From Pseudomonadota bacterium (lineage in GTDB: Bacteria; Desulfobacterota; Binatia; Binatales; Binataceae): a DNA stretch of 64,000 bases. A program made the translations under genes and the position numbers. The stretch spans positions 1-64,000 of the forward strand of contig JAJPIG010000026.1 in NCBI GenBank assembly GCA_021324855.1, read 5' to 3'. The notes below the pieces were generated by a model that saw only the letters and a program-made list of their open reading frames with translations, was not told where the DNA came from and searched no databases. This document shows positions 5,662-46,853 of the stretch, in pieces. How positions within the stretch are numbered: position 1 is the first letter of the stretch; every line of letters starts with the position of its first letter.

Positions 5662-6161
5662 GCGAATTGCACGCCGCCTTCGCCAGCGTTCTTGCGCGCC
5701 GATCGCTCGATGAACCCGCGGCCGGGAGCGCCTTCGGCGAGATTCTCGACGGCGGCGCCGCCGCGCGCGATGCGCACGCGCGAGCGCTCGAAGTAGGCGA
5801 CGGCGTGATCGACGTGGTCGGAACCGGCGGTGACGGCGCCAGCAGCTTCAACGTCTCGACCGCGGCGGCGATCGTTGCAGCGGTGGCCGGCGCGCGCGTC
5901 GCCAAGCATGGCCGATGTCCAGTCTGCCGCCAGAAGCTGCATCCTGAGATGCCGTGGCACATCCATCACGTCATCTGGAAAGTAGCGGGCGGTTCTGACC
6001 GGCTCGACAATCTCGTTCCGCTCCATCCCAACTGCCATCGGCAAGTTCACAGCCGAGAAAACCCGTCGCCATTTCGGGTGCTCCAACGCGCCTTTGAGGG
6101 GTTTGAGCTGGATGAGGCGAAAGTCTCACGTCCAGTTCTTAGGGGGCGGGAGGCGCCGTAA
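5658..6161 (+). pseudogene. trpD: Truncated trpD fused to the HNH tail of a group II intron protein
   Basis: The first 85 codons are the N-terminus of anthranilate phosphoribosyltransferase, including the signature [20 protein letters not shown] and GARVAKHG. At base 5913 the reading frame passes without a stop into RCPVCRQKL and [31 protein letters not shown]. That is an HNH endonuclease zinc-finger domain, followed by [18 protein letters not shown], the usual C-terminal end of group II intron reverse transcriptase/maturases. About 250 residues of TrpD, including the phosphoribosyl-anthranilate active site, are missing here. The 167-residue chimera cannot be a functional transferase. No trpC, trpF, trpB or trpA follows, so the rest of the pathway must lie elsewhere or be lost. 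Confidence 0.85.
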
Positions 6162-6180
6162 GGCCCTCCTGCTACCCGAC
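5913..6180 (+). mobile_element. 3' remnant of a bacterial group II intron
   Basis: Only the last part of the intron is left: the HNH-domain coding end and the 3' ribozyme domains. Bases 6105-6138 form a 34-nucleotide domain V, with arms GAGCTGGA and TCCAGTTC closing a GCGAAAGT-capped inner helix. Bases 6139-6180 fold as a domain VI hairpin ending near CTACCCGAC. The domain V sequence overlaps the coding frame, as is usual for this class. The 5' ribozyme domains and reverse transcriptase region are absent, so it cannot splice or move by itself. Whether this arose by deletion after insertion or by recombination with another copy cannot be told here. Confidence 0.8.
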
Positions 6181-16815: not shown

Positions 16816-17337
16816 CTACGCGGCCGCTTTGCGGGCCGCCGCCAGTGCCGCCTCGTAATCCGGATGATTGGCAACTTCCTTCACATACTCGGAATAGACA
16901 ACATTGTCGTTGCGATCGATCACGAAGACCGCGCGTGTCAGCAGGTGCAGTTCCTTGATCAACGCGCCGTACTTCTGTCCAAACTCGGCGCTGCGCCAGT
17001 CGCTGAGCGTCGTGACCTTGTCCACGCCCGCCGCGCCGCACCATCGCGCCTGAGCAAATGGCAGATCCATCGAGATGGTCAGGATCTGCACGTCGCCGGG
17101 CAGTTTCGCCGCTTCCTCGTTGAAGCGTCGCGTCTCCGCATCGCAGACCGGCGTATCAATTGACGGGATGCTCGCGATGATTTTTACCTTGCCTTTGAAC
17201 TGATCGAGGTTAACCGGCGCCAGGCCCTTGCCGACCGCGTTGAATGCCGGCGCCTTCTGTCCGGGCTTCAGCTCCGGACCGACCAGGGTCATCGGATTGC
17301 CGCGCATCGTGACTGCCGCCTTACGCTCTTCAGCCAT
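16816..17337 (-). CDS. tpx: Thiol peroxidase (Tpx-type peroxiredoxin)
   Basis: A 173-residue atypical 2-Cys peroxiredoxin that reduces hydroperoxides using thioredoxin. The peroxidatic cysteine is C65 in SIDTPVCDAETRRFN and the resolving cysteine is C100 in ARWCGAAG, the spacing typical of Tpx. The N-terminal MRGNPMTLVGPELKPGQKAPAF is also characteristic. AGAGGAG precedes the start codon. It is transcribed alone, converging with glnE. No OxyR- or PerR-type operator was recognised in its short upstream region. Confidence 0.94.
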   Translation of the reverse strand: MAEERKAAVTMRGNPMTLVGPELKPGQKAPAFNAVGKGLAPVNLDQFKGKVKIIASIPSIDTPVCDAETRRFNEEAAKLPGDVQILTISMDLPFAQARWCGAAGVDKVTTLSDWRSAEFGQKYGALIKELHLLTRAVFVIDRNDNVVYSEYVKEVANHPDYEAALAAARKAAA

Positions 17338-17505: not shown

Positions 17506-18162
17506 ATGAGTGAAACAGACAGCCGATTCGGGCCGACCGGCAACGAGAACGGCCGTGGCGGGGGGCATCAGCGAGAGGTTCGCAACTCAAGGCCCAAATT
17601 GCCCGCCGACAAACCGGTCATCGCCGTGTTCGGCGCCTCCAGGGCGCAGCCCGGTGACGGACTGTACGAGCAGGGCTATCGCATTGGCGAACTGCTCGGC
17701 CGCGCGGGCTTCAACGTCATGACCGGCGGGTATACCGGCCTGATGGAAGCGGCGAGCCGGGGCGCTCACTCAGCGGGCGCCTACGTGATCGGAATCACGC
17801 TTAAACGTTTCGAAGAGAAGGCGAATCCCTTCGTCACCGATGAAATTTCGACCGCGAGCTTCGGCGCTCGTTTCCGATGGCTCATCGGGCGCGCCGATGG
17901 ATATATCGCGATGCCCGGCGGGATGGGCACGCTCGCCGAGGTCAGCTTCGCGTGGCAGGAGCTGGCGATTGGCATGATCAAACCGCGTCCGCTGGTGCTG
18001 GTGGGTCCGCGATGGCGAACGATCGTGGAGAGCTGGCGCGAAAATCTCACCACTGAGTCCGAGAAATACGCACGGATAACGCTGGTCGAATCGCCCGAAG
18101 ACGCGTGTCAAGCGATGATCGCATACTTTGGGCGAAATCGAACCGCGCACCACAGGGGCTAA
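17506..18162 (+). CDS. LOG-family Rossmann-fold protein (TIGR00730-like)
   Basis: A 218-residue protein with the lysine-decarboxylase-like Rossmann fold. VFGASRAQPGDGLYEQGYRIGELLGRAGFNVMTGGYTGLMEAASRGA is the nucleotide-binding N-terminal part, and MPGGMGTLAEV is the PGGxGTxxE motif of cytokinin-activating phosphoribohydrolases (LOG) and nucleotide 5'-monophosphate nucleosidases. The residues expected for catalysis (R and E of the motif region) appear present. In bacteria such proteins usually release bases from nucleoside monophosphates; the exact substrate is not deducible. The first 35 residues are low-complexity, so a later start is possible. Confidence 0.82.
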   Translation: MSETDSRFGPTGNENGRGGGHQREVRNSRPKLPADKPVIAVFGASRAQPGDGLYEQGYRIGELLGRAGFNVMTGGYTGLMEAASRGAHSAGAYVIGITLKRFEEKANPFVTDEISTASFGARFRWLIGRADGYIAMPGGMGTLAEVSFAWQELAIGMIKPRPLVLVGPRWRTIVESWRENLTTESEKYARITLVESPEDACQAMIAYFGRNRTAHHRG

Positions 18163-18165
18163 GTT

Positions 18166-19014
18166 TCAGACGCGCGCGAAACGGGCGCGGCGCTCCGCTT
18201 CAATCCGATCGGCCTCCTCGCGGCCAGGCCGGCGCGGCATGAAGCCCGGCCGATAGTCGCGCTCCTCCCAACTGTTATCGGCCTGATCCCAGACGTAAGG
18301 CAGCTCGACAATCGTGCCCGGCGCCTCGATCGATTCGAACGCAGCGAGCGCATCGCGCAGGATCGACCGTTGCAGCGCGGGGTCGTCAGGCTTACCGGTC
18401 TGATGACCGAGCGGAAAATTTACGAACACCGCACGCGGCGGTTTGACCGCCTGCGTAATGTCGAGCGCCGATGTCATCGTGAGCGTCGGAATTCCCGCCT
18501 CTTCGACTACCCGCGCGATCAGTCCGACGGACTGATGACAGACGGGTCAGGCGGGGACGAGCAGGAACGCATCGGCGTGTGCGGCTTTCAGCTCAGCGAC
18601 GATTTTCGGCGCCAGTTCATCGCGCACTTTGCGCGCCGAGTAGATGCCGCCCATGAAGGTGAATGCGGGGTCGCTGAGCTCGCCGATCACCCCCTCAGCC
18701 TCGAATTCGCGCAACCGTTCGAGCGGGAAGACGCAATTCGGATCACGCTCGGCGTCGGCGGTCGGATAGCCGAAATGCCAGATGCTTAGTTCATCGCGCC
18801 GCGCGTTTTTTGGGACGGGTCTGTATGATGCGTCCTCGCGATGGAAACGCGGCTGGTCGCGGTAGAGGATCCCGCCCGAACTCATCAGCGCGAGTTTGGA
18901 TCTTGTAAGCGGGCGGCGCAGCGGGGTCCACGGCGCCGTTTCATTCACCACCCATCGATACGGCTCATAGCTGCTGTAGAGCTCACGAGTCCGCGGTATG
19001 TAGGCGATCGGCAT
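18166..19014 (-). CDS. Selenoprotein of the GrdB-like (glycine/sarcosine/betaine/proline reductase B) family, UxxC
   Basis: Two minus-strand frames (19014-18547 and 18477-18166) are one gene: they share a reading frame and the only interruption is a TGA at 18549-18547, codon 156. Reading it as selenocysteine gives FLLVPA-U-PVCHQSVGLIARVVEEAGIPT, a UxxC redox motif (Cys159) in a conserved segment, and a 282-residue protein. Upstream, LALMSSGGILYRDQPRFH, SYRPVP and DPNCVFPLERLREF match GrdB-like proteins of the glycine/sarcosine/betaine/D-proline reductase selenoprotein B family. A stem-loop suited to a bacterial SECIS lies immediately after the TGA. The tRNA-Sec gene is in the same window. GrdA, GrdC/D and thioredoxin partners are not adjacent, so the substrate and reaction are unknown; a thiol-dependent reductase role is inferred. 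It converges with the LOG gene. Confidence 0.87.
18510..18546 (-). promoter_or_regulatory. SECIS-like hairpin downstream of the UGA codon
   Basis: On the minus strand, 10 bases after the TGA, ATCAGTCC and GGACTGAT form a perfect 8-base-pair stem with a GTC loop. An outer CCCG/CGGG pair closes a longer, internally looped helix. The apical G-U lies 19-20 bases after the UGA, within the range that SelB requires in bacteria. The RNA is coding, and the hairpin sequence coincides with HQSVGLI. Confidence 0.75.
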
Positions 19015-19219
19015 CCGAAACTTCTCCAGTACCGCTCAATTCTATCAAGCCGCAACGATTGAGTCTCGATTACCCGCGATCTTCGAATTAACGGATAGCG
19101 TCCGAGGTTCACAAAACATACGATCGTCGGCAACATATAGATTCGGGTCGCGCCGCACCAAAGGATGCTTGTTGGTTAACCATGGCGCGAATCCGCCGGC
19201 GATCATTGCAGAGCATCGT

Positions 19220-21016
19220 ATGGCATTGAGAATCGAGGATTACGCGCTCATCGGTAATACACTTACCGCAGCATTGGTCGGACGCGATGGTTCGATCGAC
19301 TGGCTCTGCCTTCCGCGCTTCGATTCGGGCGCCTGTTTTGCGGCTCTGCTGGGCGAGCCCGGCAACGGCCGCTGGCTCATCGCCCCCGATGAGGAAGTCC
19401 GCGCAATCCGACGGCATTACCGCGGCGACACACTGATCCTCGAGACCGAGTTTCGCACTGCCGGCGGCGAGGTTGCGCTGATCGATTTTATGCCGCTGAA
19501 CGATCGCGGGGAGTTCGTCGATCTGATTCGGATCGTCGAAGGGCGGCGCGGCACCGTGCCGATGAAGATGGAAATCGTGATGCGACTCGACTACGGCCAC
19601 GTGGTGCCGTGGGTCGTGGGGCGCGACTACGGACTGCGCGCGATTGCCGGTCCCGACGGTCTGATGCTGCGGACTTCGGCGCGAATTCACGGCCGGGATT
19701 TCATGAGTGTCGCGAATTTCAACGTGAGCGAAGGACAAACGGTGCCGTTTACGCTCACCTGGTTTCCGTCGCATCGCCCCGAGCCCGCCGGACGCCATCC
19801 GCATCGAATGCTGGAGGACACGGAGCGCCGATGGACCGATTGGTCGGCGCGCTGCAGTTACCACGGGCCGTGGCGCGACCTGGTCGTTCGTTCGCTGATA
19901 ACCTTGAAGGCGCTGACCTATGCGCCCACCGGCGGGATCGTCGCCGCGCCGACCACCTCGCTGCCCGAGCAAATCGGCGGCGTCCGCAACTGGGACTACC
20001 GCTTCTGCTGGTTGCGGGACGCGACCTTCACGCTCTACGCATTGCTCTCATCCGGCTACACCGAGGAGGCGCGCGCATGGCGTGAATGGCTGCTGCGCGC
20101 GATCGCTGGCCATCCGCAGGAAGTCCAGGTGGTCTATGGGATTTCCGGCGAGCGACGGCTCACCGAATTCGACGTCGATTGGCTTGCCGGATACGAAGGC
20201 AGCCGGCCGGTGCGGATCGGAAACCAGGCCCACAGCCAGTTTCAGCTCGATATCTGGGGCGAGGTGATGGATACGATGCATCTCGAGCGCAAGCATCAGA
20301 TTCAGCACGACAGTGATGCGTGGAATCTGCAGCTTGCGCTGATGGATTTTCTTGAAAGCGCCTGGGACCGGCCCGACAACGGCATCTGGGAGGTGCGCGG
20401 ACCGCGTCGCCATTTCACGCACTCCAAGGTGATGGCGTGGGTGGCATTCGATCGCGCCGTAAAGGCAGTCGAGTCGTTTCATCTCGAGGGTCCGGTCGAT
20501 CGATGGCGCGCGCTGCGCGACCGGGTGCATTCCGACGTGATGCAGCATGGGTTTAATCGCCAGCGCAACGCGTTCATCCAGTATTACGGCAGCGATCAAC
20601 TCGACGCGTCACTGCTGATGATGCCGTTGGTGGGATTCATTAACGCGTCCGATCCGCGGATGCTCTCCACGGTTGCAGCGATCGAACGCGAGCTCATGCA
20701 GGAGGGGTTCGTAAAGCGGTACCTGCCGCGTCACGAGGTCGAGCATCTGCCGGGCGGCGAAGGCGCATTTCTGCCGTGCAGTTTCTGGCTCGCCGACAAT
20801 TATGCGCTGGCGGGACGCGCGGCAAAGGCGCGCGCGATGTTCGAGCGGCTGGTTTCGCTATGTAATGATGTTGGCCTCATTTCCGAGGAATACGACCCGG
20901 TGGAGAAACGTCAGCTCGGAAATTTTCCGCAGGCGTTTACGCACGTCTCACTGATCAACTCGGCCTGCAACGTAACGCTCGCGCGCGGCCCGGCCCATAA
21001 CCGCGCCACGAACTAA
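19220..21016 (+). CDS. Glycoside hydrolase family 15 protein (glucoamylase/trehalase-like)
   Basis: A 598-residue protein. The N-terminal beta-rich domain begins IEDYALIGNTLTAALVGRDGSIDWLCLPRFDSGACFAALLG, the standard start of bacterial GH15 proteins. The (alpha/alpha)6 catalytic domain contains EQIGGVRNWDYRFCWLRDATF, then NGIWEVRGPRRHFTHSKVMAW with the probable general acid Glu, and FLPCSFWLADNYALAGR late in the chain. It has no signal peptide, so it probably acts on intracellular alpha-glucosides such as trehalose or maltodextrin. An upstream ATG at 19169 would add 17 unconserved residues. It partly overlaps (4 bases) the converging racemase gene at its end. Confidence 0.9.
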   Translation: MALRIEDYALIGNTLTAALVGRDGSIDWLCLPRFDSGACFAALLGEPGNGRWLIAPDEEVRAIRRHYRGDTLILETEFRTAGGEVALIDFMPLNDRGEFVDLIRIVEGRRGTVPMKMEIVMRLDYGHVVPWVVGRDYGLRAIAGPDGLMLRTSARIHGRDFMSVANFNVSEGQTVPFTLTWFPSHRPEPAGRHPHRMLEDTERRWTDWSARCSYHGPWRDLVVRSLITLKALTYAPTGGIVAAPTTSLPEQIGGVRNWDYRFCWLRDATFTLYALLSSGYTEEARAWREWLLRAIAGHPQEVQVVYGISGERRLTEFDVDWLAGYEGSRPVRIGNQAHSQFQLDIWGEVMDTMHLERKHQIQHDSDAWNLQLALMDFLESAWDRPDNGIWEVRGPRRHFTHSKVMAWVAFDRAVKAVESFHLEGPVDRWRALRDRVHSDVMQHGFNRQRNAFIQYYGSDQLDASLLMMPLVGFINASDPRMLSTVAAIERELMQEGFVKRYLPRHEVEHLPGGEGAFLPCSFWLADNYALAGRAAKARAMFERLVSLCNDVGLISEEYDPVEKRQLGNFPQAFTHVSLINSACNVTLARGPAHNRATN

Positions 21017-21801
21017 TCGCGGCGTAGACCGCGCGCGACGAAGTCGCGAAAATCCGAAATCGCGCGGCTCGGGGCGAGGGCAAAACTGGGACCGCGACTC
21101 GCCTCGATGCCATTGAGCCTGTAGAGCTGAATCCACATCTCGGTACTTTTCAGCGCCACTGCGGCGCAGTTGACGACGGGCGCACGATCGACGGTCATCG
21201 CGCGCTCACGCGACAACAGAAGTCCTGGCAGCACGCCGGCCGGGATGATCACGTCAGCGCCCCTCTCGACCAGCGGCCGTGCGCATTCAATGAATGCCGC
21301 GCGCATCCGTGCGAAGGCCGCCTGGTCTCCCGCAAACGCGGCGCTGAAATCTTCGGGCACCGCCCTGAGCCCGGTAACGGCGACCACCCGTCCGTCGAGC
21401 CCATAGCGCTCCGCCTGCTCGTAATGCCACACCTCGAAAATCGGATCGATTGAGACCAGACCGATTCGCCGTCCGATCTGCGCGGCAAAGTGCAGCGTCG
21501 CCTCTCCGGTGCCGATTACCGGAATGCGCACGGCTGAACGAGCTTCGTAAAGTCCGGGATCCTGGAAGTGGCCCATCGCAAAGCCGTCGTAGCCCTGCTC
21601 CTCGGCAGCAATTGCGCTATTCACCGCCTGGATCGCGCATCGAAATTCCGTGAGCCGGCCGAAATCCCGATCGGGCGGCGTGGTTCCTTTCACGTCGACG
21701 TGCGTGCCCGGTTGCGCGATTTCGTTGAGATAGGCCGAGAGTTGTTCGAGATAGGCGGCGTTCTGCGTCCCATCGACAAAACTTTGCCACCAGATGCGCA
21801 T
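21013..21801 (-). CDS. Asp/Glu/hydantoin racemase family protein
   Basis: A 262-residue protein with the two-domain Asp/Glu racemase fold: GYDGFAMGHFQDPGLYEARSAVRIPVIGTGEATLHFAAQIGRRIGLVS, and later GADVIIPAGVLPGLLLSRE and APVVNCAAVALKSTEMW. In the hydantoin-racemase subgroup two cysteines act as acid and base. Here the second site has Cys in VVNCAAV, while the first site reads GHFQDPG without a Cys, so it may be a related isomerase or decarboxylase such as the maleate isomerase/AMDase group rather than a racemase. It stands alone between a GH15 gene and a divergently oriented thiolase-like gene. Confidence 0.7.
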   Translation of the reverse strand: MRIWWQSFVDGTQNAAYLEQLSAYLNEIAQPGTHVDVKGTTPPDRDFGRLTEFRCAIQAVNSAIAAEEQGYDGFAMGHFQDPGLYEARSAVRIPVIGTGEATLHFAAQIGRRIGLVSIDPIFEVWHYEQAERYGLDGRVVAVTGLRAVPEDFSAAFAGDQAAFARMRAAFIECARPLVERGADVIIPAGVLPGLLLSRERAMTVDRAPVVNCAAVALKSTEMWIQLYRLNGIEASRGPSFALAPSRAISDFRDFVARGLRRD

Positions 21802-46757: not shown

Positions 46758-46853
46758 GGAGGAGGAAGGGGCCCGGTGGCCCCACCGGTCTTCAAAACCG
46801 GCTTGGCGGGCATTGCGCTCGCCGGAAGGTTCGACTCCTTCCCCCCTCCGCCA
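46758..46853 (+). tRNA. selC: tRNA-Sec (anticodon TCA)
   Basis: A 96-nucleotide gene with the special fold of selenocysteine tRNA. It has an 8-base-pair acceptor stem (GGAGGAGG with CCCCCTCC, one A-C mismatch), a 6-base-pair D stem GGGGCC/GGCCCC with CGGT loop and an anticodon stem CGGTC/CCGGC-type with loop TTCAAAA giving the UCA anticodon. A very long variable arm follows, then T stem GAAGG/CCTTC with TTCGACT loop. Discriminator G and encoded CCA end at 46853. It recognises UGA and supports reading of the selenoprotein at 18166-19014. Confidence 0.92.

Follow-up and report, generated by a model that had tools for sequence, protein, structure and literature searches.

A PrdB-like gene with a predicted selenocysteine codon in a Binatota genome, its probable independence from reductase partners and a possible link to glutathione and peroxide metabolism

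The best described relatives of the protein analyzed here are PrdB and the protein B subunits of the glycine, sarcosine and betaine reductases. PrdB (TIGR04483), found in Clostridia and Enterococcus, has a UxxC site, and the clostridial gene contains a UGA codon. A Sec-containing "proline reductase PrdB" with UxxC and the Pfam GRDB domain was also reported from surface-ocean bacteria, with 42 Sargasso Sea and 235 GOS genes (PMC1088965, PMC2398784). The broad kind is therefore already known, as an oceanic Sec-containing "PrdB", since 2005. It is among the commonest selenoproteins of the ocean surveys and has been filed for twenty years under D-proline reductase, an enzyme of anaerobic amino acid fermentation. 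The oceanic proteins resemble the present one by description (UxxC, Pfam GRDB) rather than by sequence comparison, and the available portions of those reports describe neither Binatota members nor the surrounding genes. One member of the clade to which the present protein belongs comes from L040, a single-cell genome of the K189A clade. GrdB, GrdF and GrdH, the protein B subunits, share a homologous C-terminal half with UxxC but are ~ 430 residues long and work with GrdE, GrdA and GrdC. In the FarB/FarE fluoroacetate reductase of Synergistota, a GrdB-like Sec protein has been recruited for a substrate that is not an amino acid, and unlike the present locus its operon holds the FarE partner and a transporter (PMC10838667). 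Finally, a "glycine/sarcosine/betaine reductase selenoprotein B family protein" of Roseomonas and Haematobacter is 36% identical to the present protein and likewise has no adjoining PrdA or GrdE; its Sec site reads CPVC or CPIC, Cys replacing Sec, and its neighbors are SelO or cobalamin genes. Against this background, the partner-less state of the branch described below, its glutathione/peroxide neighborhood and its place in Binatota seem to be new.

The gene lies at positions 18166-19014 on the minus strand of the window, the 64,000-nucleotide stretch of DNA that was analyzed. It comprises 282 codons (19014-18169) followed by a TGA stop at 18168-18166. Re-translation reproduced exactly the frame of the preliminary description, which had reported a single interruption, the TGA at 18547-18549 (-), within FLLVPA-U-PVCHQSVGL. 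This TGA is codon 156. Cys159 (18538-18540, (-)), which completes the UxxC redox motif, is invariant in an alignment of 35 rows. A Shine-Dalgarno-like GGAG, recognized from the sequence, is located at 19024-19027 (-), 9 nucleotides 5' of the ATG, and orthologues share the ATG position, with the N-terminus MP[IV]xYIPRTREL. Third codon positions have a GC content of 0.74 both before and after the UGA.

Codon 156 is TGA in 53 of 54 homologous loci and TGC in the remaining one, from a member of the Desulfobacteraceae (L034); the 54 loci include some organisms twice, via two collections, and represent 42 distinct sequences. A stop codon occupies the Sec site in all 20 further loci. The comparison with Cys homologues that the preliminary description had proposed places Cys at this codon in L034 and in two alphaproteobacterial proteins (CPVC and CPIC), and clostridial PrdB reads UGTC. 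Thus, no residue other than Sec or Cys was read at this site in any homologue. The ratio dN/dS is well below 1 and similar 5' and 3' of the UGA; comparison of the window gene with L063 yields a dN of 0.152 and a dS of 1.012 before the UGA, and 0.212 and 0.993, respectively, after it. More distant Sec-containing PrdB-like subfamilies occur within the class (L045-L048 and L069/L073). L069 and L073 keep the UGA, with a motif one residue longer (UPQVC) and a differently placed hairpin.

The hairpin AUCAGUCC-GUC-GGACUGAU, with an 8-bp stem and the 3-nucleotide loop GUC, was confirmed at 18518-18536 (-), starting 10 nucleotides after the UGA as first described, with its loop 18 nucleotides after the UGA. 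The bacterial bSECIS model specifies a loop of 3-9 nucleotides, a stem of 4-16 bp, a G at loop position 1 or 2, a UGA-to-loop distance of 16-37 nucleotides and a minimum free energy of at most -7.5 kcal/mol (PMC13188914). These published constraints were applied by hand, and the window hairpin falls within all of them, with G first in the loop and a minimum free energy of -12.3 kcal/mol over 33 nucleotides or -16.0 kcal/mol over 36. The 64-kb window has just five perfect hairpins with an 8-bp stem and a 3-nucleotide loop, including that at the Sec site. When the same peptide was recoded synonymously, 0.6-3.7% of trials attained a folding energy as low, depending on the length of sequence folded, so the folding energy of the single sequence is modest evidence and the weight is carried by conservation across homologues. 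Among 31 distinct sequences the hairpin pairs are intact in 96.4% of pair cells, whereas slid controls pair in at most 47%. Double-sided changes at two stem pairs occur in six cells (six sequences), compared with 0.9 in shuffles. For example, the stem of L031 and L036 is ACCAGACC/GGUCUGGU, in which a Ser to Thr change places A-U for U-A and a synonymous Gly codon saves the pairing. The hairpin is lost in the Cys homologue L034.

The genome (3.75 Mb, 96% complete) contains the whole set of selenocysteine genes that the preliminary description had suggested looking for. The selA gene on contig C32 scores 579 bits (cut-off 268), selB at C35:94196-96088 scores 370 bits (cut-off 242) and selD, also on C35, 392 bits (cut-off 125). 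In addition, a tRNA-Sec with a UCA anticodon lies inside the window at 46758-46853 (+), identified by Rfam RF01852 (71.7 bits) and by ARAGORN. The tRNA gene encodes its GCCA end and lies between an alpha/beta hydrolase gene and one that weakly matches an HTH domain; selB and selD adjoin one another (C35:94196-97106). The selD gene has an in-frame TGA of its own near the start (KAAG-U-AGKLG), which makes SelD another probable selenoprotein. The genome thereby probably holds at least four Sec genes, namely the PrdB-like gene, selD, grdA and grdB, giving this member of the Binatota a selenoproteome; no selenoprotein study on Binatota was found in the literature searched. With Cys homologues at the codon, a hairpin within the SECIS constraints and the complete machinery, the PrdB-like gene is almost certainly a functional selenoprotein gene in which, as judged from sequence, UGA codon 156 is decoded as selenocysteine. 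The circumstances that the preliminary description had named against this reading (homologues lacking Cys or Sec at codon 156, absence of selA/selB, proof of a sequencing error) were not encountered.

The description of the protein as GrdB-like stood at the level of the superfamily, with a Pfam GRDB (PF07355) score of 45.1 bits against a cut-off of 22, but not at the level of the family, the nearest of which is PrdB. The protein scores 171.2 bits on the PrdB model TIGR04483, below its equivalog cut-off of 300 bits, whereas true PrdBs from Enterococcus, Terrisporobacter and Peptoclostridium score 310-425 bits. TIGR01918, a broad Grd/Prd subfamily model, gives 65.8 bits, marginally above its cut-off of 65.45, and the GrdB-type NCBIfam models give 61-63 bits. 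The PrdB model also matches each of the 35 aligned homologues, whose E-values with the Grd models are far poorer. The protein lacks the full-length GrdB architecture of ~ 430 residues; its 282 residues cover only the C-terminal half of the Grd models. Alignment with PrdB extends over ~ 215 residues at ~ 37% identity. The window protein differs from PrdB in its motif (PVCHQ in place of GTCHR), in N- and C-terminal extensions and in having no prdA, prdC or prdD neighbors. In the tree it groups with its Binataceae orthologues (support 100/99) inside a clade (98/94) separate from clostridial PrdB; the placement of long branches in this tree is unsure. Together the model scores and the tree make this a PrdB-like protein that is neither a GrdB nor, by the curated test, a PrdB orthologue. 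Several sister groups (among them L021, L028, L029, L032, L037 and L040) have an extra C-terminal CxxC, in the forms CEVC, CGSC, CRAC or CPTC, that is missing from the group of the window protein.

The preliminary description had stated that the GrdA and GrdC/D partners are absent, which is correct for the window and incorrect for the genome. A GrdB(U)-GrdE-GrdC-GrdA(U) locus is present on contig C33 at 64.9-69.4 kb (L075:6892-11394). Its GrdB has an in-frame UGA and scores 408 bits on PF07355. The GrdE-like protein, with 304 bits, is the sole match to PF09338 in the genome. GrdC reaches 558 bits on the NCBIfam component C beta model (cut-off 450), and GrdA, with the UGA in CFVU, 195 bits (cut-off 130). 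No GrdD-like gene was noticed on reading 20 kb at this locus. A HpaB-like flavin hydroxylase gene lies directly downstream of the locus and a luciferase-like monooxygenase gene directly upstream; the genome that holds it also has COX1-type oxidases. A locus of the glycine reductase type was found in only four of 41 family genomes. Genes of the Asp/Glu/hydantoin racemase family occur near both the PrdB-like gene (window 21013-21801 (-)) and the Grd locus (L075:4596-5375 (-)).

Neither PrdA nor GrdE is encoded beside the PrdB-like gene in the window. The PrdA model TIGR04480, which finds Enterococcus PrdA with 970 bits, has no match in the 96% complete genome, nor in a control genome. The PF09338 protein on C33 also scores 192 bits on the model for a FarE-type partner (NF053623), compared with a cut-off of 675 bits. 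Among the 41 family genomes, PF09338 occurs in four, and GrdA in the same four plus one marginal, partial match. A PrdB-like match at ~ 1e-42 or better was obtained in 31 of the 41, and only the genome analyzed here combines the gene with PF09338; the other 30 lack both PF09338 and GrdA. As a control, PF09338 does match real PrdA. Unless all 30 of those drafts miss both genes, the PrdB-like protein works without a pyruvoyl subunit and GrdA, and independence from PrdA/GrdE is very probable. That relatives keep the gene without Grd partners also favors the earlier proposal of a reaction other than glycine reduction.

The gene neighborhood was compared with that of Binataceae orthologues from 22 genomes (70-77% identity), which gave ~ 21 informative loci; these genomes are related, and the counts do not represent independent events. 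A same-strand gene for GST is located directly upstream, with a gap of ~ 25-125 bp, in 12 of the ~ 21 loci, and a same-strand MAPEG gene downstream in nine. Thiol peroxidase (tpx) follows on the same strand in 17 of 21, and a same-strand nitroreductase gene follows tpx in 12 of ~ 21. The window retains tpx alone of this cluster, downstream on the same strand at 16816-17337 (-) (NCBIfam thiol peroxidase, 215.7 bits, cut-off 123), with a LOG/lysine-decarboxylase-like gene (Pfam PF18306/PF03641) intervening on the opposite strand at 17506-18162 (+). A similar gene occupies this place in L091 and L100 only. In five loci from Myxococcota the gene follows GST, TauE and MAPEG genes, in an order unlike that of Binataceae. 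The fact that such neighbors recur in two phyla carries more weight than the Binataceae counts. No study linking PrdB and GST was found in the literature. In a Binatia subgroup of 53% identity none of the GST, MAPEG, Tpx and nitroreductase neighbors is present. The neighbors of that subgroup (NADH-dehydrogenase-type, SDR, glyoxalase and GltD-like genes) were considered as a clue and set aside, as they look like chromosome order common to close relatives. The PrdB-like kind thus persists without proline or glycine reductase partners and, in two phyla, recurs beside genes of glutathione and peroxide metabolism. Its real function can thereby be tested, and the "proline reductase" annotation is disfavored.

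The AlphaFold model is confident (pLDDT 93.4) and shows an alpha/beta structure in which a strand (149-153) leads to a helix (157-172), with the Sec at the helix start. Reactive chalcogens are commonly found at such a position, where a helix begins behind a strand. Residues invariant in the 35-row alignment are the UxxC motif, G48, F57, D61, R65, H80, P97, F120-M121-G122, P136, R168, E171, T177, P193, R194, G203, G207 and Q215. A PDB sequence search with the protein and its profile returned nothing convincing, and Foldseek with the AlphaFold model gave no match with an E-value of 0.001 or better. The VIA-align matches had Z scores of at most 8.3 and were scattered over unrelated alpha/beta folds.

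The explanation that best accounts for the data as a whole, and that is considered moderately probable, is a stand-alone PrdB-like selenol oxidoreductase, its Sec decoded, that would act through the UxxC couple and the conserved His, Arg and Asp within a glutathione-linked detoxification module. The tRNA-Sec and SelB would read UGA codon 156 as Sec, using the hairpin immediately 3'. The helix N-terminus would lower the selenol pKa of Sec156, whose selenolate would attack or reduce an electrophilic small substrate, sulfur or a glutathione-derived intermediate. Cys159 would then resolve the product, giving a selenenylsulfide, and thioredoxin or glutathione would re-reduce the enzyme. The pyruvoyl-bearing partner (PrdA/GrdE), which activates the amine substrate in the D-proline and glycine reductases, would play no part. 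The proposed setting is a detoxification module that in relatives would also include GST, a MAPEG protein, thiol peroxidase and a nitroreductase, and the C-terminal CxxC of several sister groups could relay electrons. The company of GST, MAPEG and Tpx suggests glutathione conjugates or peroxides, and a role linked to them is put forward tentatively, on gene neighborhood, as a possibility somewhat short of even. Aerobic potential is assigned on the basis of two COX1-type oxidases in the genome, which make a strictly anaerobic Stickland role less likely. More doubtful is the proposal that bacteria with aerobic potential possess here a separate enzyme system, a glutathione-linked selenol reductase that would cleave an electrophilic or glutathionylated substrate with no pyruvoyl subunit. 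If true, the reaction would be unlike that of every characterized Grd/Prd family member.

The protein may instead serve mainly as an antioxidant at the protein level, its UxxC reducing Tpx or glutathionylated and oxidized proteins as a helper resembling thioredoxin or Gpx. No other neighbor is as constant as Tpx (17/21), GST and MAPEG suggest glutathione, and the extra CxxC of the sister clades could pass electrons. Nonetheless, many invariant residues are distant from the motif and suggest a small-molecule pocket, and the lack of a thioredoxin fold among the structure matches listed counts weakly against this role, which appears unlikely, if worth keeping in view. Somewhat less likely again is that the protein works like FarB/FarE, as a reductive dehalogenase or C-X lyase that depends on Sec and cleaves a small haloacid or a similar electrophile. 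For the GrdB-like FarB, an attack of the selenolate on the fluoroacetate C-F bond has been proposed (PMC10838667), and GST neighbors fit the handling of electrophiles. However, FarB works with a PF09338-type FarE, which is absent here outside the Grd locus, and neither a transporter nor a haloacid gene was seen adjoining the gene.

It is improbable that the protein belongs to D-proline reductase as a subunit, or that it is a substrate-specific protein B feeding the genome's own GrdA and GrdC. Homology to PrdB/GrdB across most of the protein and the GrdB-GrdE-GrdC-GrdA locus of the same genome, with UGAs in grdB and grdA, would allow it, but the PrdB score of 171 bits against 300 (310-425 for true PrdBs), the clade (98/94) apart from clostridial PrdB and the lack of any PrdA match in the genome do not fit, and the absence of PF09338 and GrdA from 30 of the 31 gene-bearing family genomes is decisive. 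A reading of the UGA as a genuine stop, as a sequencing error or as the decayed remnant of a Cys codon, leaving two fragments or a pseudogene, has next to no probability and was rejected: a second ATG reading frame after the UGA (18477-18166) is what automatic annotation would call, but the UGA recurs in dozens of assemblies from several phyla, the SECIS is conserved with compensatory changes, the Sec machinery is present, and dN/dS points to purifying selection 3' of the UGA.

Elsewhere in the window, positions 6103-6180 (+) match an Rfam group II intron domain with 60.8 bits.
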